A stretch of 39,609 bases of DNA from Cryomorphaceae bacterium (lineage in GTDB: Bacteria > Bacteroidota > Bacteroidia > Flavobacteriales_D > Cryomorphaceae): contig PXBH01000128.1 in NCBI GenBank assembly GCA_003565555.1, positions 1 to 39,609 on the forward strand. Direction: 5' to 3'. Below the pieces are notes generated by a model. The model did no database searches and was not told where the DNA came from. It saw nothing but the letters and a program-made list of their open reading frames with translations. This document shows, piece by piece, positions 4,604 to 38,105 of this stretch. Position 1 is the stretch's first letter, and every line of letters begins with the position of its first letter. Position numbers and translations under genes: made by a program.

Positions 4604-7546
4604 ATGAAAAAGTCTCTTGCAAACTCTGTGAAGGATGTACCGTTATTGGTACGTGAGGCGCGCGCGGGAGCGGTGGCTGAAGTCCGCGATTTGCTTAAAA
4701 AACTGGACGGCGAAGCGGCTGCGGTGATAATCGGGAGCCCCGAACATGATGAAGCAGCCGACACAGCTGATGTCGTGATCGCCGCGCACGGAGAGCTCCC
4801 CCTTCCGGGAAAAATATACACAGCACCTCAGGGCAAGCGTCTCAGTATGCGCGGCTCCTCAATTGTGCTGAGCGAAAATGCCGAAGATCACGGCGATGAC
4901 CCGTTTCCGCTGCAGGAGATCCTTGAAAAATGCGACGGGCCCGGCATAATGCTCACGGACCGGGAGTACCGTGTGGTATGGCGCAATGAGAAATTTGCGC
5001 AGCACCACCTTTCGGAAATCGGAACCGAACTGCGCAAAGGAGACAGCATTCTTCCGAATGAAGAGGGTGGGTTGCGCGAAGCGACAAAGCAGCGCTATGA
5101 CTTTGTTTTTTCCGGAAAGGAGCACACCGAGAAAATCCGTCAAGATGCAGCGCAGGGCAAGGGCCCCGCTTACACCATGCACTACAAGCCCGTGTATGAC
5201 GGGGAGGGCCGCTGCTGCGGTGCCGCGGTAACGATGACTGAGACGGCCGGCGGCAAGGGATCGGAAACTGCGCCCGGACGCGGGGAGAGACTGTACAGAA
5301 AACTTTTTGAGAACGGAGGGGAGGCTGCAGCAGTTTTGGGCCCCGACGGCAGGCCCCGATTTGTTTCAGAATCCGTGAAGCAAGTATTGGGCTACACCGT
5401 TGAGGAAGCGCTGCGATTAGAGCTCTTCGAAGCGCTGCACCCGGAAGATACCGAAAAGGCAAAGAAAGTGATTGAGGAGGCCCTTGCGAATCCGGGGGTA
5501 ACACTGAAGGGCGGCGTACTCCGAATACGTGTAAAATCAGGTAGCTACAGATATTTTGATGCCAAAATCACCAATATGCTCCACGACCCTGATGTAAGAG
5601 GGATTGTGGACAACTTCAGGGATGTAACCGAAATTGTAGAGGCTTCCGGGGAAACCGCATTTGAAAGAAGAAACCGAGAGGCCCTCATCAACAATACCGA
5701 GGATCTCATCTGGAGTATTGACAAGAATTACTGCCTGGTCGCCGCCAACGACGCCATGAAAGCAACCATGCAAGTAGTGACGGGTAAAGAATTGAGAACA
5801 GGTGATGACCTCTTAGATGAAGCAATATTTACGGAGGATCAGCGCACTTATTGGCGCGCGATCTACGACAGAAGTTTATCCGGGGAGACCGTAAAGGTAA
5901 ACACCTCCGGGATGGACGGGGATAAAGGATCTGCCGTGGTATACGACGCCGTGCTCACGCCTATCAAACACGGAGAAGCCGTGGTGGGGGTAGCGTGCTA
6001 CGCACACGATGTAAGTGAGCGCAAACGCAGAGAAAAGCTGCTGAAGGAGCGAACCGAGTTTATCGAGACTACCGTCAACAATTTGCCGATCGGTATTGCC
6101 GTAAACGAGACGGGGAGCGGGGTCACTACACTTATGAATGAGCGTTTTACCGACATATACGGATGGTCACGGGAGGCGCTGAGCGGTGTGGATCGATTTT
6201 TCAAGAACGTATATCCCGACGAAGCCCGAAGAAAAGAAATAAAAACCCGCGTACTTGCCGACATCGCCTCGGGCGACATCAAACGCATGGTGTGGCGGGG
6301 GGTGAAAATCACCACCTCCTCCGGAGAACAGCGGTACATCAATGCGCAAAACATTCCCCTGCCTGAGCAGGGATTAATGATTTCCACGGTTTTGGATGTT
6401 ACGGACGAGTACACTTCAAACCGTGTACTGAAAGAAACCAACGACCGCTATGAGCTGCTGATGAAATCAAGCTTTGAAACCACATGGGACTATGACGTAA
6501 GGACGGGATTGATTTATTGGGGGGCGGGAATGGAATCAAATTTCGGACACCGGTTTAACGATGCTGCTTCAAGTGTTGAGGATTGGGCGGACCTGGTACA
6601 TCCCGCAGACAGAGATAAAGCGGTTTCCGATTTTAAAAAAGCTGTTTCGGACGGCAAGTCACAGCGCTGGGCAGGAGATTACCGCATGGTCAAGAGTGAC
6701 GGAAGCTACGCCGAGGTGAGAGATCGGGGCTATATCCTGCGCGATCATGAGGGGCATGCCATTCGGGTGGTCGGCGCCGTTCAAGACTTCACCGCAGAAA
6801 AGGTCTACAAGCGAAACCTGCAGAGACTGAACAGCGAATTGCAGAAGCACGCCGAAGAACTCGCCGTCTCCAATGCCGACCTTGAACAATTTGCTTACGT
6901 GGCATCACATGATCTTCAGGAGCCTCTGCGCATGATCACCGGTTTTCTGACCCAAATCGAAAAGAAATACGCTCCCTTGCTGGACGACCGAGGAAGGCAG
7001 TATATCAATTTTGCGACGGACGGGGCAGCGCGGATGCGTCAAATAATTCTCGACTTGCTCGAGTATTCCCGGGTGGGCAGGACTGAAGCCGCGGCGCAAG
7101 ACACAGACATGAACGCGTGCCTCGAGGAGGCTGAAAAAATCCTCGCGGGCAGTATCCGCGAATCGGGAGCCCTGATCACATCGGCCGACTTGCCCTATAT
7201 CAAAGCCGTACCGGGAGAGATCCGGCAAATGTTTCAAAACCTGCTGGACAACGCCATCAAATACAGCAAAGAAGGTGAAGAGCCGAGGATCGAAATCGGC
7301 GCGAAAGAACTGAGTGATCATTTTGAAATTTCCGTGAAGGACAACGGAATCGGAATTGACCCGATTTATTTTGACAAGATCTTTTCAGTTTTTCAAAGGC
7401 TTCACCTTCAGTCTGAATACTCCGGAACGGGCATCGGGCTGGCCATTTGTAAAAGAATAGCGGAAAAACACGGGGGCAGGATCTACGTGCAATCCGGAGA
7501 AGGCAGCGGAAGCACATTTTGTTTTACCGTCAGCAAAAACCTTTGA
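4604..7546 (+). CDS. Multi-PAS sensor histidine kinase with CheB-like N-terminal remnant
   Basis: This is a 980-residue, apparently soluble sensor kinase with no transmembrane segment. Residues about 20-95 resemble a shortened CheB methylesterase domain (AGAVAEVRDLLKKL, then GKIYTAPQGKRLSM, compared with the family's VYxAPxGxHL strand) but lack the catalytic Ser and His context. Five PAS-like domains follow at roughly 105-220, 230-345, 350-475, 480-605 and 610-740. The HisKA domain contains ASHDLQEPLR with phospho-acceptor His769. The HATPase domain has the N box NLLDNAIKYSKEG, the G1 box DNGIGID and the G2 box GTGIGLAICKRIAEKHGG, so the kinase core looks intact. It heads a three-gene signalling cluster with the two receiver proteins downstream. 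The sensed signal is unknown. Confidence 0.9.
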   Translation: MKKSLANSVKDVPLLVREARAGAVAEVRDLLKKLDGEAAAVIIGSPEHDEAADTADVVIAAHGELPLPGKIYTAPQGKRLSMRGSSIVLSENAEDHGDDPFPLQEILEKCDGPGIMLTDREYRVVWRNEKFAQHHLSEIGTELRKGDSILPNEEGGLREATKQRYDFVFSGKEHTEKIRQDAAQGKGPAYTMHYKPVYDGEGRCCGAAVTMTETAGGKGSETAPGRGERLYRKLFENGGEAAAVLGPDGRPRFVSESVKQVLGYTVEEALRLELFEALHPEDTEKAKKVIEEALANPGVTLKGGVLRIRVKSGSYRYFDAKITNMLHDPDVRGIVDNFRDVTEIVEASGETAFERRNREALINNTEDLIWSIDKNYCLVAANDAMKATMQVVTGKELRTGDDLLDEAIFTEDQRTYWRAIYDRSLSGETVKVNTSGMDGDKGSAVVYDAVLTPIKHGEAVVGVACYAHDVSERKRREKLLKERTEFIETTVNNLPIGIAVNETGSGVTTLMNERFTDIYGWSREALSGVDRFFKNVYPDEARRKEIKTRVLADIASGDIKRMVWRGVKITTSSGEQRYINAQNIPLPEQGLMISTVLDVTDEYTSNRVLKETNDRYELLMKSSFETTWDYDVRTGLIYWGAGMESNFGHRFNDAASSVEDWADLVHPADRDKAVSDFKKAVSDGKSQRWAGDYRMVKSDGSYAEVRDRGYILRDHEGHAIRVVGAVQDFTAEKVYKRNLQRLNSELQKHAEELAVSNADLEQFAYVASHDLQEPLRMITGFLTQIEKKYAPLLDDRGRQYINFATDGAARMRQIILDLLEYSRVGRTEAAAQDTDMNACLEEAEKILAGSIRESGALITSADLPYIKAVPGEIRQMFQNLLDNAIKYSKEGEEPRIEIGAKELSDHFEISVKDNGIGIDPIYFDKIFSVFQRLHLQSEYSGTGIGLAICKRIAEKHGGRIYVQSGEGSGSTFCFTVSKNL

Positions 7547-7622
7547 GGACCTGCGGGAAAAATATTTCCGGAATACGAGGTACGCACTTAAGATTAGAAA
7601 ATTATGATTTTTTTTCGCAATC

Positions 7623-7652
7623 TTTGAACCGCAGAGGCAACCGTTAAAATTG
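7623..7652 (+). promoter_or_regulatory. Candidate Bacteroidota promoter for the response-regulator pair
   Basis: A -33-like TTTG at 7623-7626 is followed after 18 bases by TAAAATTG at 7645-7652, one mismatch from TAnnTTTG. A start about five bases downstream gives a leader of roughly 35 bases to the response-regulator ATG at 7694. This would let the two receiver genes be expressed apart from the kinase. Confidence 0.42.
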
Positions 7653-7693
7653 TTTTCACCCGGCAGCTCCCGCCTGACAATATCAATCAGATT

Positions 7694-8143
7694 ATGAATC
7701 CTATACGCATCTTACTTATCGAAGACAATGAGGGGGATATTCTTCTCACCATCGAAGCCCTGACAGAAGGAAGAATTGTAAACGAGGTGGATGTGGTGAA
7801 GGACGGAGGAGCCGCACTGGATTTTCTGAGAAAAAAGGGAGAATACGCAAGGTCGAAAACCCCGGACTTGATTTTGCTCGATGTAAACCTGCCGAAAAAA
7901 GACGGGCATGAGGTATTGCAAAGCATCAAGGACGACCCTGCGCTGAAGACGATACCCGTCATTATGCTGACCACATCATCAGCGGCTTCAGATATACTCA
8001 AGGCTTATAAGAATCACGCCAACTGCTATATTACCAAGCCTGTAGAAGTGGATGACTTTATATCGACAGTGGCAGGCATCGAGAATTTTTGGGTTTCTAT
8101 CGTGAAATTGCCGCCCCGGGGGCAAAATGAAGCCATGGAATGA
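7694..8143 (+). CDS. Single-domain response regulator (Rcp1/CheY-like)
   Basis: A 149-residue stand-alone receiver domain. The acidic pocket is visible as LLIEDNEGD (Glu10/Asp11), the phospho-acceptor Asp63 lies in LILLDVNLPKKDG, with conserved Thr93 (VIMLTT) and Lys115 (YITKPV). The NEGD start, the long alpha1-beta2 region and the KGEYARSKTPDLILLD block are typical of the Rcp1 family, which pairs with phytochrome-like and multi-PAS kinases. There is no DNA-binding output, so it acts by protein contact or as a phospho-shuttle. Its stop overlaps the start of the next gene as ATGA (8140-8143), indicating translational coupling. The kinase upstream is the likely donor; that pairing is inference from position. 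Confidence 0.92.
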   Translation: MNPIRILLIEDNEGDILLTIEALTEGRIVNEVDVVKDGGAALDFLRKKGEYARSKTPDLILLDVNLPKKDGHEVLQSIKDDPALKTIPVIMLTTSSAASDILKAYKNHANCYITKPVEVDDFISTVAGIENFWVSIVKLPPRGQNEAME

Positions 8144-9921
8144 CTCAAGCGCAAAAACTGCCCTCGGCTATACTCGTCGTTGAAGACAACGACGGAGATT
8201 TTTTCCTGATCGCCGACCATCTTTCAGAAGCAGTTCCCGGGGCGGAGCTCCGTCGCGCGTTGACTTACCGGGAAGCGGAAGAAGCAATCGCTAATCACAA
8301 ATTTGACCTCATCTTTCTGGATCTTGCACTGCCCGATCGCGAAGGGAAATCCCTGGTGCGCGATATCATCACCATGGCAGGCAAAACTCCCGTGGTGGTA
8401 CTCACCGGGCTGAGCGACAAAAATTTCGGACCGAAGGCCATAGGGCTCGGTGCAACCGATTACATCGAAAAATCTGAAATCTCTGCCCCGTTCCTGCTAA
8501 AGACCATCACCTATACCCTGGAGCGAAAAAAAATTGTATCACGGCTCGAAGAATCAGAGCGTGAATATCGGCTTCTTTTCGACCTCAGCCCTATTCCCAT
8601 GTGGGTGTATGACCTGGAGACTTTGGCTTTTCTCAGGGTGAACCGCGCGGCGGCGGACCATTACGGATTCAGCGAATCGGAATTTTTGAAAATGACCCTG
8701 CGCGACATTCGCCCCGAATCCGAAATTCCGCGGCTCGAAAAGGTGACAGAGCGTCTGAAAACAAAAGACAGTTGGCAGGGCAGATCGGAGTACCTCCACC
8801 GCAAGAAAAACGGTGAAGTCATTGAAGTCCTTGTCGAAGGTTCATCCTTTGTCTATAACGGGAAAAAGGCTGAGTTGATCCACGCCATAGACATTACGGA
8901 GAAAAAGCGAAATGAACGTGCACTGGAACGGGCCTTCAGCAGACTCAAAAAAGCCGAAAGCATCGGTATGCTGGGCTATTGGGAAAGGGATTTGGAAACA
9001 GATAAGTTGTTCTGGTCTGACGAATTTTACCAAATAACAGGCATCGAAAAGACAGCCGAACCGCCGGATTTTGAGGCCTTTCTCCGATTGATTCACAATG
9101 AGGACATGGCGACCTTCATTTCCGGGTACCGATCGCTGCGCACGGGGCTGCACACCATGGATATCGAGCACCGCATTTCTTGTCCCGACGGCAGGACCAA
9201 ATTCGTGCGACAAAAGGGAAACGCCGTAAAAACTGCCGACGGAAAAGCGGTGCGTATCGAAGGGATCATCCAAGACATCACCGACCGAAAAGCCGACGAA
9301 CTCAAACTCCTGCTGAGAGAGTCGGTGATCGCCAACATGAAGGAGGCTGTAATGATCACAGAATGCAATGCCTATGAGCCCGCACAGGACCGTGCGGTTT
9401 TCGTCAACAACGCATTCTCCGAGATTACGGGTTACATGCCGGAAGACATCTTGGGAAGGAGTTCCGAGATTCTCTTCACGGGAGATGAAGATGCGCTTGC
9501 CTTGGAAAAATACCGAAACGCCAACAAGAGCCTCAAACCGCTCGCCCTTGAGTTTTCCACTGTACGGCGTTCGGGAGAAGATTACTGGATGAGTTTTTCG
9601 ATGGTCCCGGTGCCCAACTCGGACGGGGAGTATACCCACCGGCTTATTATCATGCGGGATATCACCGAGCGAAGGGAATATTTAAACCTTCTGAAACGGC
9701 AAAACAAACGCCTCAAAGAAATCGCCTTTACCCAATCCCACATCGTACGTGCTCCCCTTTCACGGCTCATGGGATTGGTCAATGTTTTGCTGAGCACCGA
9801 TAAGGAAGATCCCGACTTAGAAATAATGCTGGGAAATGTCGGCACTTCGGCGCAAGAGCTGGATGAAGTTATCAAAAATATCGTGGACAAAGCCGTCTCT
9901 GATGAACAGAAAACAGCTTAA
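8140..9921 (+). CDS. Receiver - triple PAS - DHp protein without an ATPase domain
   Basis: A 593-residue signalling protein. Residues 8-125 form a receiver domain with Asp16, phospho-acceptor Asp61 (LIFLDLALPDREG), Thr89 and Lys111-like positions. PAS-type domains follow at about 137-255, 265-385 and 390-515, each ending in a DIT motif (IDITEKK, QDITDRK, RDITERR). The last 74 residues form a dimerisation/His-phosphotransfer helix pair with FTQSHIVRAPLSRLMG, placing a candidate phospho-acceptor His at about 534. This is the Bacteroidota HisKA variant SH(I/V)VRAP. The protein then stops, with no N, G1 or G2 ATP-binding boxes and no continuation in another frame before 10000. It may act as a phosphorelay intermediate or as a partner of the full kinase upstream. 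Domain calls are firm; the role is inferred. Confidence 0.88.
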   Translation: MTQAQKLPSAILVVEDNDGDFFLIADHLSEAVPGAELRRALTYREAEEAIANHKFDLIFLDLALPDREGKSLVRDIITMAGKTPVVVLTGLSDKNFGPKAIGLGATDYIEKSEISAPFLLKTITYTLERKKIVSRLEESEREYRLLFDLSPIPMWVYDLETLAFLRVNRAAADHYGFSESEFLKMTLRDIRPESEIPRLEKVTERLKTKDSWQGRSEYLHRKKNGEVIEVLVEGSSFVYNGKKAELIHAIDITEKKRNERALERAFSRLKKAESIGMLGYWERDLETDKLFWSDEFYQITGIEKTAEPPDFEAFLRLIHNEDMATFISGYRSLRTGLHTMDIEHRISCPDGRTKFVRQKGNAVKTADGKAVRIEGIIQDITDRKADELKLLLRESVIANMKEAVMITECNAYEPAQDRAVFVNNAFSEITGYMPEDILGRSSEILFTGDEDALALEKYRNANKSLKPLALEFSTVRRSGEDYWMSFSMVPVPNSDGEYTHRLIIMRDITERREYLNLLKRQNKRLKEIAFTQSHIVRAPLSRLMGLVNVLLSTDKEDPDLEIMLGNVGTSAQELDEVIKNIVDKAVSDEQKTA

Positions 9922-28207: not shown

Positions 28208-28516
28208 TCAGTTCCAAAATCTGAAATACACCACAAAGGGAATGTAGAGGAAGACGGCGAGGAGGACACCGCGGGCCGTCTTATTCCGATTGGTACGGAT
28301 AAAGAAAAAGAAAGGGACAAGGTTGAAAACGAGGGAAAGCGTGATGATAGACGAGCGCCAAGTGGGGATGGCGAGAAAAATGTCATGGAGGAAATAATTG
28401 AAAGGCTTGGCAAAATACCAAGCCCAGCCTGCACCGTAGAGGAAGAAGCCGATCACGGGACTGAATGCACCGATGAGCACACCGAGTTTTTGGTTGTCGT
28501 ACTTTTTAACCTTCAT
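28208..28516 (-). CDS. Small membrane protein of the surE-lpxB operon, unknown function
   Basis: A 102-residue protein with three likely membrane segments: LGVLIGAFSPVIGFFLYGAG, SIITLSLVFNLVPFFFFI and GVLLAVFLYIPFVVYFRF. The chosen start at 28516 overlaps the last 11 bases of surE; an upstream ATG at 28546 would overlap further. The stop is two bases from the lpxB ATG, so translation is probably coupled through all three genes. The conserved-looking position between surE and lpxB suggests a role in lipid A or envelope assembly. That is inference, and I recognise no named family. Confidence 0.72.
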   Translation of the reverse strand: MKVKKYDNQKLGVLIGAFSPVIGFFLYGAGWAWYFAKPFNYFLHDIFLAIPTWRSSIITLSLVFNLVPFFFFIRTNRNKTARGVLLAVFLYIPFVVYFRFWN

Positions 28517-29306
28517 AATCCCAGCTGTTGAGCGTAGCCATAGCATGGTAAGCGGTGAGGTCGAATTGAACAGGCACCACAGATACGTAATTGTGTTCCA
28601 AGGCCCAGATGTCGGTGTCCTCCCCTTTGTCTTGGTTGTTCAGCTCGCCTGTGATCCAGTAGTAAGTATTCCCGGCCGGGTCTTCGCGCGGCACGAAGTC
28701 ATCTTCCCAGAAGGCCTGGCCTTGGCGGCAAACTTTGATGCCCCTGATGTCTTCCGGCTTGCCCTTGGGTATATTCACATTCAGGCAGGTATGTTCGGGG
28801 ATGCCGTGTTCGAGAGCATTGCGGATAATGGTACGCGCCACACCGCGTGCGGCGGTAAAGTCGGCATCCACGCCGTGATCGAGGAGGGAAAAACCGATGG
28901 AGGGGATATTCTCCACGGCGCCTTCCACCGCTGCCGACATGGTGCCCGAGTAGATCACATTGATGCTGTTATTGGCCCCGTGGTTGATTCCGCTGAGGAG
29001 GAGGTCGGGTCGGCGCTTGAGCACGCGGTACACCGCGAGCTTCACGCAGTCTACCGGGGTGCCCGAGCAGGCGAATTCGCGGACCTCCAAGGGGGCATTG
29101 CGCACCTCCGTGATGCGAAGAATATTGTTGACCGTGATGGCGTGGCCCATCCCGCTTTGGGGGCTGTCGGGCGCCACTACCCATACATCGCCGAATTCGC
29201 GGGCAGTTTCGATCAGGTTGCGGATACCCGGCGCGGTGATACCGTCGTCATTGGTCACGAGGATCAGGGGCCTTTCTTCGGTTTTCTTCTTCTTTTTTGC
29301 CGTCAT
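28506..29306 (-). CDS. surE: 5'/3'-nucleotidase SurE
   Basis: SurE is a metal-dependent nucleoside monophosphate phosphatase linked to stress and stationary-phase survival. The 266-residue product starts with a lysine-rich tag and then PLILVTNDDGITAPGIRNL, the defining Asp-Asp metal site. VVAPDSPQSGMGHAITV and LLSGINHGANNSINVIYSGT follow with the conserved Ser and Asn. The length is typical. It is the first gene of a surE - membrane protein - lpxB unit and has a perfect promoter box four bases before its ATG. Confidence 0.97.
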   Translation of the reverse strand: MTAKKKKKTEERPLILVTNDDGITAPGIRNLIETAREFGDVWVVAPDSPQSGMGHAITVNNILRITEVRNAPLEVREFACSGTPVDCVKLAVYRVLKRRPDLLLSGINHGANNSINVIYSGTMSAAVEGAVENIPSIGFSLLDHGVDADFTAARGVARTIIRNALEHGIPEHTCLNVNIPKGKPEDIRGIKVCRQGQAFWEDDFVPREDPAGNTYYWITGELNNQDKGEDTDIWALEHNYVSVVPVQFDLTAYHAMATLNSWDYEG

Positions 29307-29318: not shown

Positions 29319-29692
29319 TGAAAAGCCGGGGGTGCGGAGCCGCGCGGTACGGTGGGAACCGCAAAGAAGGTACAGTCCTCCGGTTGCAATTTTCGCGCGG
29401 CCCTTTGCGGGAAACGGATACCGCCCGGCGCTCGGTCACGGAGCGGAGACGGGGCGAATGTTGACGGCCGTTCTCGGGTCCGTTTGCGGACCGGATAATT
29501 TTTTCAATAAAATACGGCATTCATTAACCACTGAATTACAGACGCCTGTAAGCTCCTTCGGCACATTCTGTCGAGGGGAATCCAAAAAAAGTGCGGCTTG
29601 CGTGACCCTTTTCGGGGCGAATCGGCACGTAATTGAACAGAAGGCGATAAAACAGCCTTTGCGACTCAAAATTAAAAACCAACACGACCACC
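29319..29692. other. Divergent intergenic region upstream of the motor/kinase locus
   Basis: About 370 bases separate the surE promoter from the rightward beta-barrel gene. It holds a short hairpin GGTCCG/CGGACC with a TTTG loop near 29480-29495, followed by an AT-rich patch (ATAATTTTTTCAATAAAATA) that may be the promoter core for the locus. No perfect TAnnTTTG box reads rightward here, so the locus may rely on an alternative sigma factor. No small gene is credible. Confidence 0.45.
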
Positions 29693-30499
29693 ATGAAAAA
29701 GATCAAACTTCTTTCGATGATGACAATGCTTATTTTGGCAGGCTCGGGACTCCGGGCGCAACTGTCGGTAATCCTGACCCCCGAGATCGGAATTCACTCC
29801 TCGAGGAGCAATCCCACGGGCGACCTCGATATCAGCGAGAGTTTTCAGGGGATGAGCGTAAACTATTCGGGAATATTCTCCTACCGAGGCGGCATTGGTG
29901 TAGGCCTGCAGTTTCAGGACAATTGGGGGCTGCTCACCGGTGTGGCCTTCAACCGCAAAGGAGGAAAGGTAACCGTAGAGACCCGTGACCCGAACAATCC
30001 CTTCGGAGTGCAACTCGAAGACGGCACCGTCACCACAGACGTGGGTGAGGTAACGGCCACCACTACGCACAATTGGCTTTCCGTGCCCATCCTCGCGCGG
30101 GCACAATTCGGGAAGGCCTTTAAAGTAGGACTCGCCGTAGGGCCTCAGTTCAACTTCGGCCTGGGAAAATACACCGAGACGGTGGAGTACAACCTCGAAA
30201 ATACGAACATCAATACCGATGAGGATAACTACGATTTCGGTGACAGCACGCGCGACATGTTGAAGCGAAACCACATCAGCCTTGTAATCCTGCCCTACGT
30301 ATCCTACGACCTGAACCCGAAGAGCAGTCTGCGGCTCAGCATGATGATCGAGCGGGGCTCCGATATGGTGAACGAGAACTTCGTAGTGGAGCGGCCTACC
30401 GGTCAGCGAAACGTGCGGGGTACCCTCCCCAACAATCAATTCGGTGTAATGCTCAGCTACGAGTACCGCTTCGACCTGAGCGCCGGGGTGAAATACTGA
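29693..30499 (+). CDS. Outer-membrane beta-barrel protein (PorT/OMP_b-brl-like)
   Basis: A 268-residue protein with signal peptide MKKIKLLSMMTMLILAGSG..AQ. The remainder alternates hydrophobic and polar residues in strands (GGIGVGLQFQDNWGLLTGVA, NWLSVPILARAQFGKAF, KVGLAVGPQFNFGLGKY, HISLVILPYVSYDLNPKSSL) and ends in FGVMLSYEYRFDLSAGVKY with a terminal aromatic, as outer-membrane barrels do. It resembles the PorT-type eight-stranded barrels common in Bacteroidota. It is the first gene of the rightward locus and lies 60 bases before the zinc-ribbon gene. In this context it could anchor the MotB-like subunit at the outer membrane; that is inference. Confidence 0.85.
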   Translation: MKKIKLLSMMTMLILAGSGLRAQLSVILTPEIGIHSSRSNPTGDLDISESFQGMSVNYSGIFSYRGGIGVGLQFQDNWGLLTGVAFNRKGGKVTVETRDPNNPFGVQLEDGTVTTDVGEVTATTTHNWLSVPILARAQFGKAFKVGLAVGPQFNFGLGKYTETVEYNLENTNINTDEDNYDFGDSTRDMLKRNHISLVILPYVSYDLNPKSSLRLSMMIERGSDMVNENFVVERPTGQRNVRGTLPNNQFGVMLSYEYRFDLSAGVKY

Positions 30500-30559
30500 T
30501 GCACCGGCGATGCACCGACCGATTCGGGCGAAAGCCCCCAAAACCCAAAACCGACCGAA

Positions 30560-30850
30560 ATGAAACTCTGCAGAAACTGCCGCACCATCAACAGCGACGA
30601 TGTAAAAGCATGCGTGAAATGCAAAATGCCTGATCAACTCACGGACTACAATCCCGAGAAGACGCAGGAGTGGAAGCAATCGATGATGACCCAAAACCGC
30701 GTGCAAACCCTGCAGAAAGTGTGCGGAAACTGCGGCACCACTGAGTACGGCACCGAAAAGCGCTGTGCGCGGTGCCACTTTCCGATCACGATCAAGCAGC
30801 TCGGTGAAACGTCGGGTGCACGCCCGGGAATCAATACTTCAAAGCCATGA
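30560..30850 (+). CDS. Double zinc-ribbon protein
   Basis: A 96-residue cytoplasmic-type protein with two Cys4 modules of identical spacing, CxxC-x10-CxxC. The first uses Cys4, Cys7, Cys18 and Cys21 (LCRNC to CVKC); the second uses Cys55, Cys58, Cys69 and Cys72 (VCGNC to CARC). Each should bind one zinc ion, as in rubredoxin-like zinc ribbons. The linker is Gln/Lys-rich and probably helical. The stop overlaps the MotB-like start as ATGA, so the two are co-translated. It has no signal peptide, so it should sit on the cytoplasmic face and could bridge the channel pair to the kinase or phosphatase. That role is a guess. Confidence 0.82.
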   Translation: MKLCRNCRTINSDDVKACVKCKMPDQLTDYNPEKTQEWKQSMMTQNRVQTLQKVCGNCGTTEYGTEKRCARCHFPITIKQLGETSGARPGINTSKP

Positions 30851-31695
30851 AAAACCGCAATGTAGAATTCTTCAACCTCTCCTTCCTCGACCTGCTGTCG
30901 GGGGCGCTGGCAGCGGTGATCTTCCTCTTCATCATCGTGCCCAAGGGTGAGCCCACGGTCTTTGACGAAACGGTCAGTGTATCGGTAGACACCACGGAGA
31001 TGAAACTCTTCGGTCACCTTCCGGAAACCCTCTTCGGCACCGAGCCCGGCGACAGCGTACTGGTGGTGATCAGCGCGTTCGTATCGACAAAAGCCGCTTC
31101 GGAGCAGCCGGTGCGCAAAGTGACACCCGAGGAACGCAAAAGACCTAAACCGACCAAAGTCGAAATACCGCGGGAGCAAAAACCGGCAGCACCCGAACCG
31201 CGTGAGGAGGCGAAACCCGAAGCGGCGCCTACGGTGGAGCCGAGCAAATTTACCGGTTCGAAACCGGATGTGCCCTGCATGGTTTCCATCGAGATGAAGT
31301 GGGGCAGCAAAAAGGACAATGTAGACCTTTTCGTTTGCAAGGACAACGACTGCGTATTCGGCGGACGGAGGTACCGAAGCTTCATAGGATACTGGGACAG
31401 CGGGAAGGCGCGCACGAGCCTCTTCGGCGGCGACCTCCGCACCAATCAGGAAGCGGTGAGACAGTTTGACGAGATCATCCCGGGTACCTACGATATCCTG
31501 GCGCAGTACAAAGACTCCTCAGACCCCAAAGACGAAGTGCCGATACGCTTACAGGTCTACACCAAGAACGAAGACGGCACGGAGCGCGGCAAGGAGCACT
31601 ACTTCAAGCTGCCGCTTGACCCGACCCAACGCACGAAAGTGGCCCAAGTGACCATAGGCCCCGACGGCGAACTCGAATTTCAAACTTTCAAATAA
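30847..31695 (+). CDS. MotB/ExbD-like single-pass protein with a periplasmic beta domain
   Basis: A 282-residue protein. The N-terminus MKNRNVEFFNLSFLDLLSGA followed by LAAVIFLFIIVPK is one membrane helix (about 11-31) with an acidic residue, Asp15, near its cytoplasmic start. This is the arrangement of the proton-carrying Asp in MotB, ExbD, TolR and ZorB. A Pro/Lys/Glu-rich linker (about 90-135, KRPKPTKVEIPREQKPAAPE) would span periplasm. The C-terminal domain (about 142-282) looks all-beta, with NVDLFVCKDNDCVFGG and EIIPGTYDILAQYKD. It resembles the DxDLxV strands of DUF2135-like sandwiches rather than an OmpA peptidoglycan-binding domain. The gene sits between the zinc-ribbon gene (ATGA overlap) and the MotA-like gene (18 bases). 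Confidence 0.75.
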   Translation: MKNRNVEFFNLSFLDLLSGALAAVIFLFIIVPKGEPTVFDETVSVSVDTTEMKLFGHLPETLFGTEPGDSVLVVISAFVSTKAASEQPVRKVTPEERKRPKPTKVEIPREQKPAAPEPREEAKPEAAPTVEPSKFTGSKPDVPCMVSIEMKWGSKKDNVDLFVCKDNDCVFGGRRYRSFIGYWDSGKARTSLFGGDLRTNQEAVRQFDEIIPGTYDILAQYKDSSDPKDEVPIRLQVYTKNEDGTERGKEHYFKLPLDPTQRTKVAQVTIGPDGELEFQTFK

Positions 31696-31713
31696 CCGAC
31701 AAATCCAAACGAT

Positions 31714-32502
31714 ATGACAACGATAACCGCCAAAAGCACCCTGCCGAAGAACACGATGGTTCGCATCGGAATCAGCATAGGCGTCGCAGCACTCCTGTGG
31801 CTCCTCCTCATCGTGCTGGCCAACCTCTTTTCCCGGCAGCCCGCCGCGCATCGGGTACTCACCCTCCTCGGGGGATCCTCTCTCGGATACATACAGTTCA
31901 TCTGCTATTCGATCACGGTATTTGCCCTGATCCAAATCAACGAGATGAGCCTCCACATGAAGGAACAGTTCAAAGGCTTCGACCTGAAACTCCTGCCCGA
32001 GGAAGACCAGCTCATCCTCACCCCCGAAGAGGTGGCCGACATCAAACTGAGCGTGATTGAAATCGAGAAGCGCGGCACGACCTACCTGATCACCCGCTTT
32101 ATTAAGCACGCCTGTACCCAGTATCGAAACAACCAATCGATCCCCGAAACCATTCAAATCCTCGACGGGCAGATCGGCAATGCCAAAGAGGAGATGGACG
32201 GGAACCTGAACATGGTGCGTTTCCTGATCAGCAGTGTGATGTCGATAGGCTTTATCGGCACCATTATCGGGCTGGCGTCCGCGATCGGGAATGCCCATTT
32301 GGCGAAGACCGACCACGGCCTCTCCGTACTCACCTCCTACCTGGCGGTGGCCTTTGACACCACCTTGGTGGCACTCCTGCTCGGCTTGGTGCTCAACTAC
32401 TTTTACCAGAAATACCTGGAAAAGATGGACGTGTTCTACGCGCAGAGCAAGAGCTATGTGATGGACAACCTGGTGAGTAGGATCTACCGCCACGCGGGAT
32501 AA
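31714..32502 (+). CDS. MotA/TolQ/ExbB-like proton channel protein
   Basis: A 262-residue inner-membrane protein. Hydrophobic segments lie at about 17-39, 50-75, 168-190 and 205-232. The last two carry the family signature: SIGFIGTIIGLASAIGNA, and AVAFDTTLVALLLGLVLNYF with YQKYLEKMD following. These line the ion path in MotA, ExbB and TolQ pentamers. The long cytoplasmic region between TM2 and TM3 (about 78-167) is Glu/Lys-rich. There is no extended C-terminal coiled tail as in Zorya ZorA. Paired with the MotB-like gene 18 bases upstream, it should form a five-plus-two rotary unit powered by ion flow; the family is clear and the physiological job is not. Confidence 0.88.
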   Translation: MTTITAKSTLPKNTMVRIGISIGVAALLWLLLIVLANLFSRQPAAHRVLTLLGGSSLGYIQFICYSITVFALIQINEMSLHMKEQFKGFDLKLLPEEDQLILTPEEVADIKLSVIEIEKRGTTYLITRFIKHACTQYRNNQSIPETIQILDGQIGNAKEEMDGNLNMVRFLISSVMSIGFIGTIIGLASAIGNAHLAKTDHGLSVLTSYLAVAFDTTLVALLLGLVLNYFYQKYLEKMDVFYAQSKSYVMDNLVSRIYRHAG

Positions 32503-32757
32503 TTCGTGTCCGCCGAAAAGCGATGAAGCTGTGGATTAAAAAATCACTTACAACCTGCCATCGGAATAAACCTGCAAGCCTGTTGAGTGATGGTTGCAGA
32601 AAACCGTCCGGTTGTGCGAATCTCCCGTCGTTTGATCAATTGCGCACCGCCTGATTTTTCAGCAGATCCTAATTCACAGCAGATGATTATCTTGTAAGCG
32701 AAGAAAGCGGCCCGGTCCGCAACATAAAAACTAACCCTCCCCGAAGACAACTGCCCG

Positions 32758-33504
32758 ATGAACCTCAGATACCAAAGTGTGAGCGAAACAGGATTGCGCC
32801 GAACCAACAATGAAGACGCTGTGCTCTACGCCGTGCCCGACAAGCCTTGGTTGGCGCAATCGCTGGGCACACTGGCGGCGGTATCGGACGGAATGGGCGG
32901 CCTGGAACGCGGCGAAAAGGCATCGGCGCTGGTGGTAGACACCCTGCGGCGGGACTATTTTCGCGGAGCAGGCACCCCTGCACAAAAGCTCCGAGAGGCG
33001 GCGGTAAAAGCCAACAATGCCGTGGCCATTGAAGCGCAGATATCAGGCAAGAAAATGGGTGCTACATGCACGGCCCTCGCCCTGTGCAGTGATCAGCTCC
33101 ACTACATGCACATCGGCGACAGCCGGGCCTACACCCTCACGGGAGGAAAATTTGAGCAAAAAACAACCGACCATACCGCAGCCAACGAAATGGCGCACTC
33201 CGGCGTGATGCGCCATACTGACCAAACCTTGCTCTTCAATCCCCATGCCCTCACGAGGGCGATGGGGGTTGAATTGTCAAGCACCTGCCGCGCGGACGTA
33301 TTCTCCGAACCGAACAACCTTCAAAAGGGTGACCGAATACTCCTCTGCTCCGACGGGCTCTACATACACGTGAGTGATGAAGAACTGGCGGCGCACATGC
33401 GCGGGAAGCAATCCATCAAGGAAATCAGCGACAAGTTGGTGAAATTGGTGCTGAAGCGCGGAGCTCACGACAATTTTTCCTTTATTTTCATTGAAGTAAC
33501 CTGA
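32758..33504 (+). CDS. PP2C-type Ser/Thr protein phosphatase
   Basis: A 248-residue metal-dependent phosphatase of the compact bacterial PP2C type. The metal-binding motifs are intact: GLRRTNNED (Asp20), VSDGMGG (Asp44), HIGDSRAY (120-123), LLCSDGLY (Asp199) and the closing HDNFSF (Asp238, Asn239). It has no membrane segment and should act in the cytoplasm, reversing phosphorylation by the kinase encoded two genes downstream. A 255-base gap separates it from the MotA-like gene with no terminator and no perfect -7 box, so it may be reached by read-through or by a weak internal promoter (TTATCTTG near 32688). Confidence 0.93.
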   Translation: MNLRYQSVSETGLRRTNNEDAVLYAVPDKPWLAQSLGTLAAVSDGMGGLERGEKASALVVDTLRRDYFRGAGTPAQKLREAAVKANNAVAIEAQISGKKMGATCTALALCSDQLHYMHIGDSRAYTLTGGKFEQKTTDHTAANEMAHSGVMRHTDQTLLFNPHALTRAMGVELSSTCRADVFSEPNNLQKGDRILLCSDGLYIHVSDEELAAHMRGKQSIKEISDKLVKLVLKRGAHDNFSFIFIEVT

Positions 33505-33565
33505 ACAACCCGGCCGGACCGGCTTCGCGCCTTCCGGAAATAAGCTGACCTGAACCTCACGACCG

Positions 33566-34150
33566 ATGAATCCCGCTCCATCACACCGAGACCACACGCG
33601 CCAAATCACGGTACTCCTTCATCAGTGGAAGGAAGGCAACGACCGAGCAATGGACAAGGTCATGTCACTGGTGTACGACCGCCTCAAGGAAATGGCCCAC
33701 CGCTACACCCTGCGCGAAGGCCCCGACCGCACGCTGAACACGACCGGATTGGTGCACGACGCCTACCTGAAAATATTGGGACAAAACTCGCGGGATTACG
33801 AAAACAGGTCGCACTTCTACGCCATCGTGTCCACCTGCATGCGGCGCGTGATCCTCGAAGTGGTGCGCAACCGGAACGCGGTAAAGCGCGGAAGCGGTGC
33901 CCGTAAGGTGCCCGTGCAGGAACACTTCCTCATCTCCGAGAGCGACGCCGATCAGATACTGAGCGTAAACGGCGCATTGGAGAAGCTGGCCGAATTTGAC
34001 CCGAAATTGGCACAAATCACCGAATACCGCTATTTCGGCGGGATGAAAAACGAAGAAATCGCGGAAGCCCTGGGCTGCTCGCTCTCTACCGTAAAGCGCG
34101 ATTGGCGACTGGCCAAGATGTGGCTTCAGGCAGAGCTGGGCGGCCTTTAA
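33566..34150 (+). CDS. ECF sigma factor of the kinase-associated (TIGR02999-like) group
   Basis: A 194-residue sigma-70 family protein. Region 2 is QWKEGNDRAMDKVMSLVYDR with RLKEMAHRYTLREGPDRTLN. TTGLVHDAYLKILGQ follows, the hallmark of the TIGR02999 (Sig-70_X6) subgroup. Region 4 is a helix-turn-helix in EYRYFGGMKNEEIAEALGCS and STVKRDWRLAKMWLQAEL. This subgroup is typically encoded next to Ser/Thr kinases and has no cognate anti-sigma factor, so activity is thought to be governed by phosphorylation. Here it lies between a PP2C phosphatase and a Ser/Thr kinase, which fits exactly. It may direct expression of this locus, since no housekeeping box precedes the locus; that is inference. Confidence 0.92.
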   Translation: MNPAPSHRDHTRQITVLLHQWKEGNDRAMDKVMSLVYDRLKEMAHRYTLREGPDRTLNTTGLVHDAYLKILGQNSRDYENRSHFYAIVSTCMRRVILEVVRNRNAVKRGSGARKVPVQEHFLISESDADQILSVNGALEKLAEFDPKLAQITEYRYFGGMKNEEIAEALGCSLSTVKRDWRLAKMWLQAELGGL

Positions 34151-34180
34151 TTTTTTCCGGAAGGACTAACACCGAGCCAC

Positions 34181-36805
34181 GTGGACAAAGAAATCTGGAT
34201 CGCCGTAAAAAAATACTACGCCCGCCTGCCGGAAATGACGGAAGCGGAGCGGGACGCGCTCATGGAGCGGCTGGAACGCGAGGAACCCGAGGCGGCCCGA
34301 ATTCTGACGAATCTGATGCGCGAAGGCGGCGATACGGCGTCCGACCTGGACAGCCCCGCCGTGAGCAAAATTCGCGAAAATGAACAGCCCGCGGACATGA
34401 TCGGGCGAAAGATCGGCAAGTACAAACTCACCTACCTCATCGGCATCGGCGGAATGGGGCGGGTGTACCTCGCGGATCGCACCGACCTTGAAGCCCATCA
34501 GCAGGTGGCGATAAAAATCATCAGCGCGGGCTATCTGACCGACGTGTACAAAAAGCGCTTTGACCGGGAGCGCAAGATCCTCTCCCGCCTCAACCACCCG
34601 CATATCACCCGCATATACGACGGAGGAATCTCGGAAGAGGGCACACCCTTCATCGTGATGGAATATGTGGAGGGGATGCCCGTCACGGAATATGTCACAG
34701 AAGAAAAGCTCTCCCTCGAATCCCGGCTCGAACTCTTCACAGACCTCTGCGAGGCCGTGGGCTATGCGCACCGCAACTTCGTGATGCACCGAGACCTGAA
34801 GCCCGGGAACATCTTGGTGAACCGCCACGGAATCGTGAAGGTGATCGACTTCGGCATTGCCAAAATTCTCGAAGAAGAAGATTCGGAAGAAGACCTTACG
34901 GTGATGGGCTACATACCGCTCACGCCGGCCTATGCCAGTCCGGAGCAGCTCACGGGCGGCGCGCTTACGGTGGCTTCCGACATTTACTCGCTCGGGGTGC
35001 TGCTCTACCAATTGGTGAGCGGCCACAAGCCCTTTCCGGGAAGTACGAAGTCGAACATCGCCCTTGCGGAACGGCTGCGCAACAACAGATCGCTCACGCG
35101 GCCGAGTGCGAAAATCGATCCCGCCATCACCGACGATGTGAAGGGCTGGCGAAAAAAGGTGCGCGGCGATCTGGACAACATCGTGCTCAAAGCCCTGAAG
35201 GAAAATCCCGAAGAGCGCTACGGAAGCGCGGAGCAGATGGCGGAAGACCTCCGCAGGTACAAGAACAACTACCCGGTATCGGCGCGCCCCGACAGCACGG
35301 TGTACCGACTGAAAAAATACGCCCAACGCAACACCTCCCTCGTAGTGTCGGGCGTGCTTCTTGTGCTCATCCTCGCCGCGGGGGTGGCTGCCGTGCTCAG
35401 GCAATCCGGCATAGCTCAGGAGGAGCGGAACCGCGCACAAGCGGAGGCCAAAAAGGCCAAGCAGGTCACGGAGTTCATCACCGACCTGTTTGACTACAGC
35501 GACCCGAACCGCACCAAAGGGGAAGTGATCACCTCCGAAAATCTCCTCAACCTCGGTTCGGAAAGGTTGCACGAGCTGGAAGATCAGCCGGCACTGCAGG
35601 CGGAGATGTACCGGGTGATCGGGGAACTTTACCAAAAGCAAAATCTTTACGATTCGGCAGATGCACACCTCCTGCGCGCGCTGAAACTCTTTAGGGGCGA
35701 GTACGGTGAAAACCATCACGAAGTGGCCCGAACGGCACTTCTGCTCAGTGCGCTGCACACATTTATGAACCGAAGCGCGTCAGCCATCGCCTATGCGGAG
35801 CAGGCATCCGCATACTTTTCGGAGCACCGGGACGACTACGGTTTGGAGTATGTGAAAGCACTCAATTACGAGGGGCGCGGCAAGAATCAAATGGGAGAAT
35901 ACGGCGCGGCCTTTGAAGTGCTCAATCGCGCCGCATCCTTTGCGGAAAATTGGCAAGACCCCACAGAAGCAGAATTGGTGACGATGGGCAGTGTGTACAA
36001 TGACTTGGCCGTGTCGCACCTCGAATCCGGAAGCCTCGAGCTATCCCGCTCCTTCCGGTTTAAGGCATTGAAGCAAATCATCAAGGCCCAAGGCGGGTAC
36101 AATCAGAACGTAGCAGCCATGTACAATAATCTGGGGCGCAGCTACTATGCGGAAGGCCGATACGACTCGGCGCAGTACTACAGCCGCAAGGCGCTGGAAG
36201 TTGACGAAAGAATTCACGGCGGGAAGCCCAGTTATTCCGCACAGTACGCCCATGCCGATTTGGCCAAAGCCTACATCGAAATGGGTGAACACGACCTCGC
36301 CTTGATCCACGCCCGAAAAAGCCTTGAAATGTCGGAAGGCCTTTACGGCAAAATGCATGTCAACACCTCCATCGGGATGAGTGCTTTGGCCGATGCCTTC
36401 ATCGCACTCGACCAAATCGACAGCGCTGAGAAATATCTGGAGGAAGCCACCTTGGCAATGAATACGTTTTACGAAAATAAGCATCCGATGGTGGCCTGGA
36501 ATTATTGGGACAAAGCCGAACGTTATCACCGAATCGGGCAGCGGGACAGGGCCATTGCAGTGAAGCAAAAATGCATGGAGATGTATGCCCTCCTCCTGCC
36601 GGACGAACACGCCGACATAGCCGAGGGCCACGACATTCTCGCGGGCTGGCTGCTCGAAGCAGGAAGGAAGGCAGAAGCACAGGAGGCGCTCCGAAAGAGC
36701 TTCGAGGCTCGGCAACATGCCTACGGGCCGGAGGATGAGCGCACGGGGCAGGCCCTCGAGCGCTTGAATGAGTTGGTATCGGAAGCGGATGACGGCGTCC
36801 GGTGA
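34181..36805 (+). CDS. Transmembrane Ser/Thr protein kinase with TPR tail
   Basis: An 874-residue Hanks-type kinase starting at a GTG. Residues 1-78 are a charged helical lead. The kinase domain spans about 81-363: glycine loop IGIGGMGRVYLAD, Lys112 in VAIKII, catalytic HRDLKPGNIL (Asp205), DFG Asp223, activation segment ending YASPEQLTGG, and SDIYSLGVLLYQLVSG. One membrane helix at about 386-407 (SLVVSGVLLVLILAAGVAAV) is followed by an extracytoplasmic region rich in TPR repeats to the end (RVIGELYQKQNLYDSADAHL, MYNNLGRSYYAEGRYDSAQY, RKALEVDERIHG). The sensor is therefore on the periplasmic side. It ends the rightward locus and should be opposed by the PP2C. All catalytic residues are present. 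Confidence 0.95.
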   Translation: MDKEIWIAVKKYYARLPEMTEAERDALMERLEREEPEAARILTNLMREGGDTASDLDSPAVSKIRENEQPADMIGRKIGKYKLTYLIGIGGMGRVYLADRTDLEAHQQVAIKIISAGYLTDVYKKRFDRERKILSRLNHPHITRIYDGGISEEGTPFIVMEYVEGMPVTEYVTEEKLSLESRLELFTDLCEAVGYAHRNFVMHRDLKPGNILVNRHGIVKVIDFGIAKILEEEDSEEDLTVMGYIPLTPAYASPEQLTGGALTVASDIYSLGVLLYQLVSGHKPFPGSTKSNIALAERLRNNRSLTRPSAKIDPAITDDVKGWRKKVRGDLDNIVLKALKENPEERYGSAEQMAEDLRRYKNNYPVSARPDSTVYRLKKYAQRNTSLVVSGVLLVLILAAGVAAVLRQSGIAQEERNRAQAEAKKAKQVTEFITDLFDYSDPNRTKGEVITSENLLNLGSERLHELEDQPALQAEMYRVIGELYQKQNLYDSADAHLLRALKLFRGEYGENHHEVARTALLLSALHTFMNRSASAIAYAEQASAYFSEHRDDYGLEYVKALNYEGRGKNQMGEYGAAFEVLNRAASFAENWQDPTEAELVTMGSVYNDLAVSHLESGSLELSRSFRFKALKQIIKAQGGYNQNVAAMYNNLGRSYYAEGRYDSAQYYSRKALEVDERIHGGKPSYSAQYAHADLAKAYIEMGEHDLALIHARKSLEMSEGLYGKMHVNTSIGMSALADAFIALDQIDSAEKYLEEATLAMNTFYENKHPMVAWNYWDKAERYHRIGQRDRAIAVKQKCMEMYALLLPDEHADIAEGHDILAGWLLEAGRKAEAQEALRKSFEARQHAYGPEDERTGQALERLNELVSEADDGVR

Positions 36806-36950
36806 CGGCGCACAGCACAAGCTCTGAGCTTGCAGGCACGGTCGGGAGCCGGCGGACGGCCATACAGATACACGTACGGAGGCACATGCCCTGTCCGGAA
36901 ATGTGGTAGGCGGAGCGTCAGATCGTCGGATTGAATTGATCAAGGCTGAA

Positions 36951-36958
36951 TATCTTTG
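36951..36958 (+). promoter_or_regulatory. Bacteroidota -7 promoter box for the DUF2200 gene
   Basis: TATCTTTG is a perfect TAnnTTTG match with ATTG 17 bases upstream as a weak -33 element. The leader to the ATG at 37001 is about 38 bases. A longer reading start at 36956 lies inside the box and is unlikely. Confidence 0.55.
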
Positions 36959-37000
36959 CCGGATCGACACGAGATTTCTAACCCCGAAAAACCGAACGGC

Positions 37001-37366
37001 ATGACAACAACTCCCGAACACGACAAACGCATGGCAGAAATGACCTTCGCCTCGGTGTACCCGCACTACCTCACCAAGGTGGAGCGCAAAGGCCGAACGA
37101 AAGAAGAATTGCACGAAGTGATCACGTGGCTTACGGGCTACGGCGAGGCCGACATCCGACGGTGCATTTCCGAAAAGTTGACTTTTAAGGAGTTTTTCGA
37201 ACAGGCTGTCCTCCACCCCAACGCGGGCATGATCAAAGGAATGATATGCGGGTACAGGATTGAGGATATCACCACTCCGATTACACAGCGGGTGCGGTAT
37301 TTGGATAAACTCGTTGATGAGTTGGCCAAGGGGCGAAAAACGGAGAAAATCAAGCGAACGAATTAG
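37001..37366 (+). CDS. DUF2200 family protein
   Basis: A 121-residue small cytoplasmic protein. FASVYPHYLTKVERKGRTKE, EVITWLTGYGEADIRRC, FFEQAVLHPNAGMIKGMICG and RIEDITTPITQRVRYLDKLV with DELAKGRKTEKI match the DUF2200 family along its whole length. The family is widespread in bacteria and has no established function; its members are usually stand-alone genes. Here it has its own promoter box, 195 bases after the kinase stop, so I do not count it as part of the motor/kinase locus. The Tyr/His/Lys-rich core looks like a compact helical domain, and no catalytic motif can be named. Confidence 0.85.
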   Translation: MTTTPEHDKRMAEMTFASVYPHYLTKVERKGRTKEELHEVITWLTGYGEADIRRCISEKLTFKEFFEQAVLHPNAGMIKGMICGYRIEDITTPITQRVRYLDKLVDELAKGRKTEKIKRTN

Positions 37367-37466
37367 TGTCTGTCCATCCCGTACGCCCCCCCTTCGGTCC
37401 GGAAACCGGCGATGAATTTGGCCGGTATTCAAATTCTCACTTAATTGCGCGTCAAAATGATATAGC

Positions 37467-38105
37467 ATGAATGCAGTGAAGAATTTTTTCAGGATCGGAC
37501 TTTTGGCTGCGGCATCTGCCGTTTTGAATGCGCCGACGGTTACGGCGCAACCGGAGGCTTTTGACCGTTTTGCGGAGAAGCAGTTTTACGGCAACCGCAT
37601 CCAAGCAGGATCAATTCTTCTCAACGGCAGTATACAAGCCACTGCTTTTGATAACCCCGATATCGAGGGCAGAGTGCATTCAGGAGGCTTTGGCTTGGGC
37701 ATCGCCCTCGCTGAATTTATTGTGGTTACGGCGAGTTATTCTCATGTAAAAACTGACTTTGCGACCGGGTTCGGCATCTCCGAACTCAGAACCAATGTTG
37801 TCCAAGCAGGTATTCGCTTCCTGCCGAATACACTCGCCGGCTTCGTGCAGCCATATATAGGACTCGAATACTTGCGCTCCACCCAAAAAAACTCAGAAAC
37901 AGCAGTTCTTCAGGGAGCGGTGATTCCTGCAGGATTCATTTTTTGGATATCTCACTTTATGGCTGTCACCGTGCAGCCTTTCAGCATCAGCATGTTGGGA
38001 AATACCGGGGACGACCGGGACTTCAATCCGCGGTTCGATTTCGATCTCGGTTTGACCAACCCTACCTTCGGCATCAGCTTTTTGATCAACGGGCAAAGAC
38101 CTTGA
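37467..38105 (+). CDS. Outer-membrane beta-barrel protein
   Basis: A 212-residue protein with signal peptide MNAVKNFFRIGLLAAASAVL, cleaved near TVTAQPEA. The mature part has amphipathic beta strands typical of small barrels: IQAGSILLNGSIQATAFD, GGFGLGIALAEFIVVTASYS, TNVVQAGIRFLPNTLAGFVQ, PYIGLEYLRSTQ and NPTFGISFLINGQRP at the end. It lacks the terminal aromatic residue common in barrels. No partner gene is adjacent, and it is not obviously part of the motor locus, which already has its own barrel gene. The family is uncertain beyond outer-membrane beta-barrel. A TTAATTG sequence about 25 bases upstream is a weak promoter candidate. Confidence 0.75.
   Translation: MNAVKNFFRIGLLAAASAVLNAPTVTAQPEAFDRFAEKQFYGNRIQAGSILLNGSIQATAFDNPDIEGRVHSGGFGLGIALAEFIVVTASYSHVKTDFATGFGISELRTNVVQAGIRFLPNTLAGFVQPYIGLEYLRSTQKNSETAVLQGAVIPAGFIFWISHFMAVTVQPFSISMLGNTGDDRDFNPRFDFDLGLTNPTFGISFLINGQRP

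Follow-up and report, generated by a model that had tools for sequence, protein, structure and literature searches.

Seven consecutive plus-strand genes in a 39,609 nt contig of a Cryomorphaceae bacterium (PXBH01000128.1, assembly GCA_003565555.1; the whole stretch is referred to as the window and its genome as G000 in the comparisons) form a conserved unit, in which a motor cassette is followed by a kinase-phosphatase module. The order is outer-membrane beta-barrel protein, double zinc ribbon protein, MotB-like B subunit, MotA-like A subunit, PP2C phosphatase, extracytoplasmic function (ECF) sigma factor and transmembrane (TM) Hanks-type Ser/Thr kinase (STK). Our confidence is high that these genes are a real conserved unit, beyond chance neighbours, and equally high that they encode a motor-type channel. 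We give an even chance to the further proposal that the locus is one functional unit, whose sigma factor would be switched by kinase and PP2C and would transcribe the motor operon. An earlier note, made from the letters of this DNA, had described the seven open reading frames (ORFs) with their order, strand, overlaps, domains and coordinates, all of which were confirmed by an ORF check and by Pfam and NCBIfam searches (Table 1); the MotB-like gene start overlaps the zinc ribbon gene end by 4 bases. The absence of a terminator claimed there was likewise borne out, as no terminator-like site was found on the plus strand between 29693 and 36805.

Gene order in related genomes

Among 150 relatives, close MotA homologues were found only in G000 itself, in G002 of the same genus and in G019, which belongs to another family of the same order. 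Of 60 genomes, the three with MotA are also the only ones with PP2C and ECF homologues at E-values up to 1e-15. In G002 the barrel-zinc ribbon-MotB-MotA genes end contig C251, while PP2C-ECF-STK start contig C160. Because the ends of these two contigs overlap exactly by 121 bases, spanning the PP2C start, G002 keeps the full seven-gene order, and the overlap-derived coordinates give a MotA-PP2C gap of 117 bases. The G019 contig begins at MotA and continues with PP2C, ECF and STK, the MotA-PP2C gap being 138 bases; a MotB gene elsewhere in this genome (81% complete) was not found. The order that the earlier note proposed to score is therefore kept whole in G002 and from MotA onward in G019. The flanks are not kept: the G002 contig is devoid of a SurE homologue, and two unrelated minus-strand genes follow its kinase. 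Therefore, the conserved block consists of the seven genes and does not reflect general synteny. Two congeners of the carriers, G001 (81% complete) and G008, are without MotA, PP2C and ECF homologues, and the distribution points to a block that may have been gained or lost as a unit.

The MotA-PP2C gap of the window (32503-32757) comprises 255 bases of unconserved sequence, whose fold is not unusual (z -0.74). Here the locus would divide if its four motor genes and the PP2C-ECF-STK group were unrelated neighbours, and both modules are indeed found alone in one distant family, f14. Its genomes G466 and G519 carry barrel-zinc ribbon-MotB-MotA (identity 53% for MotA and 42-43% for MotB) without PP2C, ECF or kinase genes nearby, and G232 and G351 carry an ECF-kinase pair without adjacent PP2C or motor genes. 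However, the order across the gap is the same in G002 and G019, which represent different families, the modules co-occur in the same genomes as described above, and PP2C and STK genes stand beside this MotA type elsewhere. We regard unrelated neighbours as very unlikely, and the G002 contig overlap together with the G019 order led us to reject this reading. Separation of channel pair and PP2C-sigma-kinase trio, whose regular occurrence the earlier note had named as the sign of two neighbours, is thus encountered in part, in the distant family f14, but in the closer clade the linkage holds. The locus combines two separable modules in an arrangement that has remained stable in this clade.

The f14 carriers of the motor cassette have PP2C elsewhere, in FHA/trypsin-PP2C-STK clusters. 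In two f14 loci (L075 7034-12084; L076 6641-11503) a LuxR/NarL-type response regulator and a tetratricopeptide repeat (TPR) protein come after a conserved FHA/trypsin-PP2C-kinase group, an arrangement that joins kinase signalling to two-component-like genes; L075 adds an outer-membrane protein.

Motor subunits and phospho-signalling proteins

The A subunit scores 45.8 bits against PF01618 (curated cut-off 22.9), which places it within the MotA/TolQ/ExbB superfamily. It was not assigned to a named NCBIfam subfamily, the scores and cut-offs in bits being 18.5/221 for TolQ, 15.3/135 for ExbB, 13.6/340 for MotA and 15.1/100 for ZorA. When its structure model (mean pLDDT 56) was searched with Foldseek, TolQ, ExbB, MotA and ZorA chains headed the list, each E-value being not below 0.001. 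Residues Thr183 and Thr216/217, which we take to be the positions of the TolQ/ExbB pore threonines in TM3 and TM4, are invariant in an alignment of seven sequences. In the B subunit, hydropathy places the TM helix at residues 13-31 with Asp15 inside; this residue is invariant in four sequences, and an Asp is also present in relatives of the vWA type. No Pfam, NCBIfam or PDB-sequence profile, including ExbD, TolR and MotB, matched the protein, and its label "MotB/ExbD-like" rests on analogy of position, single Asp-bearing TM helix and partner. Its C-terminal domain was modelled, at low confidence, as beta-rich. A fold assignment was attempted and is not claimed (two usable sequences, mean pLDDT 45, best match at E 0.11). 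The DZR score of the zinc ribbon protein lies below the curated cut-off; all eight Cys residues are kept in G002, G519 and G466.

Motors of the 5:2 type drive flagella, the Ton and Tol systems, type IX secretion and Zorya. That the locus encodes an anti-phage motor of the Zorya kind, linked to phospho-signalling, would be in line with a weak ZorA similarity (PADLOC, 8e-5) and with kinase matches to PD-T4-6 profiles, which are expected of most Hanks kinases. But the ZorA score of 15 bits compares with a cut-off of 100, the A subunit (262 aa) has no long ZorA tail, no ZorC/D/E-like gene is present, no relatives were found in viral contigs and no defence genes were called in the examined flanks. 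We see hardly any chance for this explanation, and Zorya membership was rejected on the scores far under cut-off and the missing ZorC/D/E genes.

The kinase motifs VAIK, HRDLKPGN and DFG are intact in the alignment, and the PP2C sequence has all metal-site motifs (DGMGG, GDSR, SDG and HDN). As hydropathy detects a single TM in the kinase, at residues 387-405, its C-terminal TPRs are probably periplasmic. In region 2.2 of the sigma factor, the canonical ECF motif DAED is replaced by NTTG (Asn58-Gly61, codons 33737-33748). The surrounding NTTGLVH is invariant across G000, G002 and G019, the kinase being the next gene in each case, and the ECF proteins of the distant f14 genomes, also encoded beside a kinase, retain the two threonines (NTTA, RTTD). 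In EcfP of Vibrio parahaemolyticus, DAED is replaced by STTA, of which PknT phosphorylates the second Thr; the consensus of the ECF43 group is QTTA, and the kinases of EcfP and EcfK are encoded adjacently (PMC8999054, PMC13147305). By motif and gene neighbour, the sigma factor of the window resembles the ECF43 type, having an uncharged Thr-bearing motif for DAED and an adjacent kinase gene. From this motif and the gene linkage we infer that it likely stays inactive until phosphorylated. Its placement in a phosphorylation switch, made by the earlier note, accordingly finds support at the level of sequence.

Proposed control of the motor genes

Upstream of the barrel gene, G000 and G002 have diverged except for TGACCCTTTT-N11-GGCACGTAA. 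These two blocks of 10 and 9 bases have identical spacing in both genomes and are located 90 (G000) and 86 nt (G002) before the ATG. The block statistic amounted to 19, as compared to a largest value of 17 in 400 shuffles, and the window contains one match to the full pattern, where none is expected. The usual Bacteroidota promoter type is TTTG/TAnnTTTG. By its shape and spacing, the element at 29603-29631 looks like an ECF promoter more than like this usual type. If it is an ECF promoter, the sigma factor would turn on the motor genes. The earlier note had cast the sigma factor as the output of the system; the phospho-switch motif fits its part in signalling, but the direction may be reversed, with the motor as the output, since the ECF-promoter-like element precedes its genes.

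The following mechanism is proposed. The MotA-like and MotB-like proteins would form a proton-driven inner-membrane motor of the 5:2 type, presumably rotating, and the periplasmic beta domain of the B subunit would work on or sense an envelope component, possibly by contacting the linked barrel, with the cytoplasmic zinc ribbon protein as a putative accessory. The TM kinase would read an envelope signal via its TPRs and phosphorylate the sigma factor at the NTTG threonines. The uncharged sigma factor, lacking the acidic DAED, would be unable to bind RNA polymerase, whereas the phosphorylated form would transcribe the operon from 29603-29631, such that the switch would set the amount of motor. 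PP2C would reset the switch. Whether the sigma factor controls the motor operon we judge to be about evenly balanced.

Several observations weigh against this mechanism. Plain identity of the 29-mer element is 21/29, which is not exceptional and is also reached by shuffles, and the comparison comprises two sequences, the G019 contig beginning at MotA. The B subunit is without a named family and its structure model is poor. Further out, in f14, motor cassette and ECF-STK pair occur apart. Finally, related motor-PP2C-STK loci are without a sigma factor, and sigma control therefore cannot account for the pairing in general.

In a different arrangement, the motor would be the sensor: ion flow or outer-membrane load would act through the kinase on the sigma factor and thereby on an envelope-stress regulon elsewhere. 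This would suit a kinase with extracytoplasmic TPRs and a linked barrel, and phospho-ECFs elsewhere run polymyxin-resistance or type VI secretion regulons (PMC8999054, PMC13147305). However, the sole upstream element conserved in two genomes precedes the motor genes themselves, and in a search of three genomes for the exact element the other matches remained at the level of the reversed-pattern control and none was common to the genomes, a lack of shared sites that is qualified in that a looser motif could still conceal a regulon. We consider a sensory motor improbable.

Table 1. Features of the locus, with positions in the window
Feature	Position	Strand	Evidence and remarks
Bipartite promoter-like element TGACCC-N17-CACGTA	29603-29631	+	candidate ECF target; putative promoter
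Outer-membrane beta-barrel protein	29693-30499	+	Pfam OMP_b-brl_2 3.3e-12; same place in G002, G519, G466
Double zinc ribbon protein of 96 aa without TM	30560-30850	+	DZR 2.6e-5; eight Cys
MotB-like B subunit (single Asp15-bearing TM helix, then linker and beta-rich periplasmic domain)	30847-31695	+	hydropathy, hhalign
MotA/TolQ/ExbB-like A subunit, 262 aa, 4 TM	31714-32502	+	PF01618 6.2e-12, alignment, Foldseek; TM count from hydropathy
PP2C Ser/Thr phosphatase, Stp1-like	32758-33504	+	PP2C_2 3e-16; NCBIfam Stp1 3e-51
ECF sigma factor, TIGR02999 type	33566-34150	+	TIGR02999 189.4 bits, cut-off 126.15
TM Hanks-type STK, C-terminal TPRs, GTG start	34181-36805	+	Pkinase 2.6e-47, TPR_12 6.5e-39

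Upstream of the barrel gene lies a divergent minus-strand gene (28506-29306), which we take from its sequence to be SurE-like. Downstream of the kinase follow a DUF2200 gene (36956-37366) and a gene for a small probable outer-membrane protein (37467-38105), which is 58% identical to the product of a G002 gene near the same locus (L064 6966-7598). The genes lying between the locus and this homologue differ in G002, and the small protein could share the regulon. Far upstream, at 4604-9921, the window encodes two long PAS-type sensor proteins in tandem (980 and 593 aa), of which the first ends histidine-kinase-like and the second starts receiver-like.

The wider motor-PP2C-kinase pattern and known systems

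Profile searches over 395 genomes of the class and 395 of the phylum yielded nine further MotA relatives, the two of f14 included. A second MotA profile was built with sequences of family f46; families f100 and f119 are near its make-up, and f114 is more distant. Within this subfamily, PP2C adjoins MotA/MotB in 10 of the 12 loci found. The order MotA-MotB-FHA/trypsin-PP2C-zinc ribbon-STK/FHA-STK is present in G182 and G395 (f46), G708 (f119) and G746 (f100). Three genomes of f114 (G750, G863 and G700) have MotA-FHA-PP2C-FHA protein-MotB(vWA); in G750 and G863 two kinase genes adjoin MotA, and in G700 the contig starts at this place. A Rhizobium leguminosarum plasmid carries PP2C-FHA-MotA-MotB plus further FHA, kinase and PP2C genes. 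The association of motor, PP2C and kinase proposed in the earlier note is thus also seen in further families and in Rhizobium. The MotA and PP2C trees did not separate a single from a multiple origin of the link, their deep forks being open or weak. On the Rhizobium plasmid pRlBT01d (L091 2468-18507), the unannotated series reads PP2C-FHA-MotA-MotB-like-(1610-aa protein)-FHA-STK, and the opposite strand encodes a second STK (with PDZ) and a PP2C; this is an example of the theme in a cultured species.

The B subunits have the N-terminal Asp helix in common (hhalign 5e-11 for the f14/window type versus f100), while their periplasmic part is exchanged: it is vWA in f46 and f114 and of a W..DVDLHV type in f100, f119 and Rhizobium. 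The window domain is weakly similar to the DVDLHV type (hhalign 6.4e-5, probability 64%). Domain exchange on the motor shaft can be followed in the B subunits at L060 8565-9317, L059 8179-9045, L044 9070-10113 and L062 7168-8010.

These sigma-less loci of f46, f100, f119, f114 and Rhizobium, where MotA/MotB accompany PP2C, kinases and the phosphothreonine-binding FHA domain, favor a mechanism in which kinase and PP2C act directly on cytoplasmic portions of the motor (MotA loop, MotB N-terminus or zinc ribbon) and start or stop it, the sigma factor being a second, lineage-specific target. The sigma-less relatives are more naturally explained by direct phosphorylation. For the window, however, where the Pfam scan detected no FHA protein in the locus and the sigma factor bears a ready phospho-motif, we rate direct control of the motor as rather unlikely.

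Cyanobacterial plasmid matches were excluded from the count, as they have longer MotA proteins, CRISPR/defence-like surroundings and no annotated PP2C. Anabaena pANACY.03 (L092 6542-9121) and Microcystis p1 (L093 6542-9142) share the order of a 466-470 aa MotA-like gene and two small hypothetical genes, one set being flanked by type III-B CRISPR genes and viperin and the other lying beside a methylase and a helicase. The set resembles a compact element of the Zorya kind.

Searches of the open-licence literature revealed no account of a locus that joins motor, PP2C and kinase, and the putative class of phosphate-controlled motors is apparently undescribed so far. Tentatively, with slightly less than even confidence, we propose a widespread class of 5:2 envelope motors that would be governed by Ser/Thr phosphorylation. 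One and the same A/B subunit pair, with an exchangeable periplasmic domain (vWA or a beta domain of the DVDLHV type), would have become linked to PP2C, to Hanks kinases and to adaptors with FHA domains or zinc ribbons, both in Alphaproteobacteria and across a number of Bacteroidota-group families; in the present clade, coupling would occur via a phospho-activated sigma factor making the motor operon. For the uncharacterised 5:2 motors, the conserved unit offers a small, defined test case of phosphorylation control, and the recurrence of motor, PP2C and kinase in distant lineages indicates that such control would not be a local oddity.

With ExbBD, TolQR, MotAB, GldLM and ZorAB, the locus shares the superfamily and fold of the A subunit, the pore Thr and the Asp of the B subunit, but it differs in the B subunit itself and in having phospho-signalling partners. 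The sigma factor and kinase resemble the ECF43-Hanks kinase pairs EcfP-PknT and EcfK-PknS, with NTTG here and STTA/QTTA there replacing DAED and with an adjacent gene for a TM kinase with an extracytoplasmic part; unlike those, the pair of the window is accompanied by PP2C and a motor cassette. A linkage of kinase/zinc ribbon-PP2C-vWA has been noted (PMC7159879), and such associations, including the TerY-P triads, likewise combine PP2C, Hanks kinase and zinc ribbon, with vWA in some of our relatives. In contrast to these, the window has membrane motor subunits instead of vWA, for which no match was obtained in the nine proteins of 29693-38105, whereas it is present in the f46 and f114 relatives. 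Finally, TolQ-like motors were described in 2025 in which a protein with one TM, the essential Asp and a vWA domain stands in for TolR/ExbD as the sole partner (PMC12204202). That paper is silent on kinases, phosphatases and sigma factors, and the B subunit of the window ends in a beta-rich domain and not in vWA. Nevertheless, both have a TolQ/MotA-like A subunit and a B subunit that is reduced to an Asp-bearing TM helix plus a periplasmic domain other than OmpA, versions with vWA were found here among the relatives, and the pairs described here appear related or analogous to those motors.

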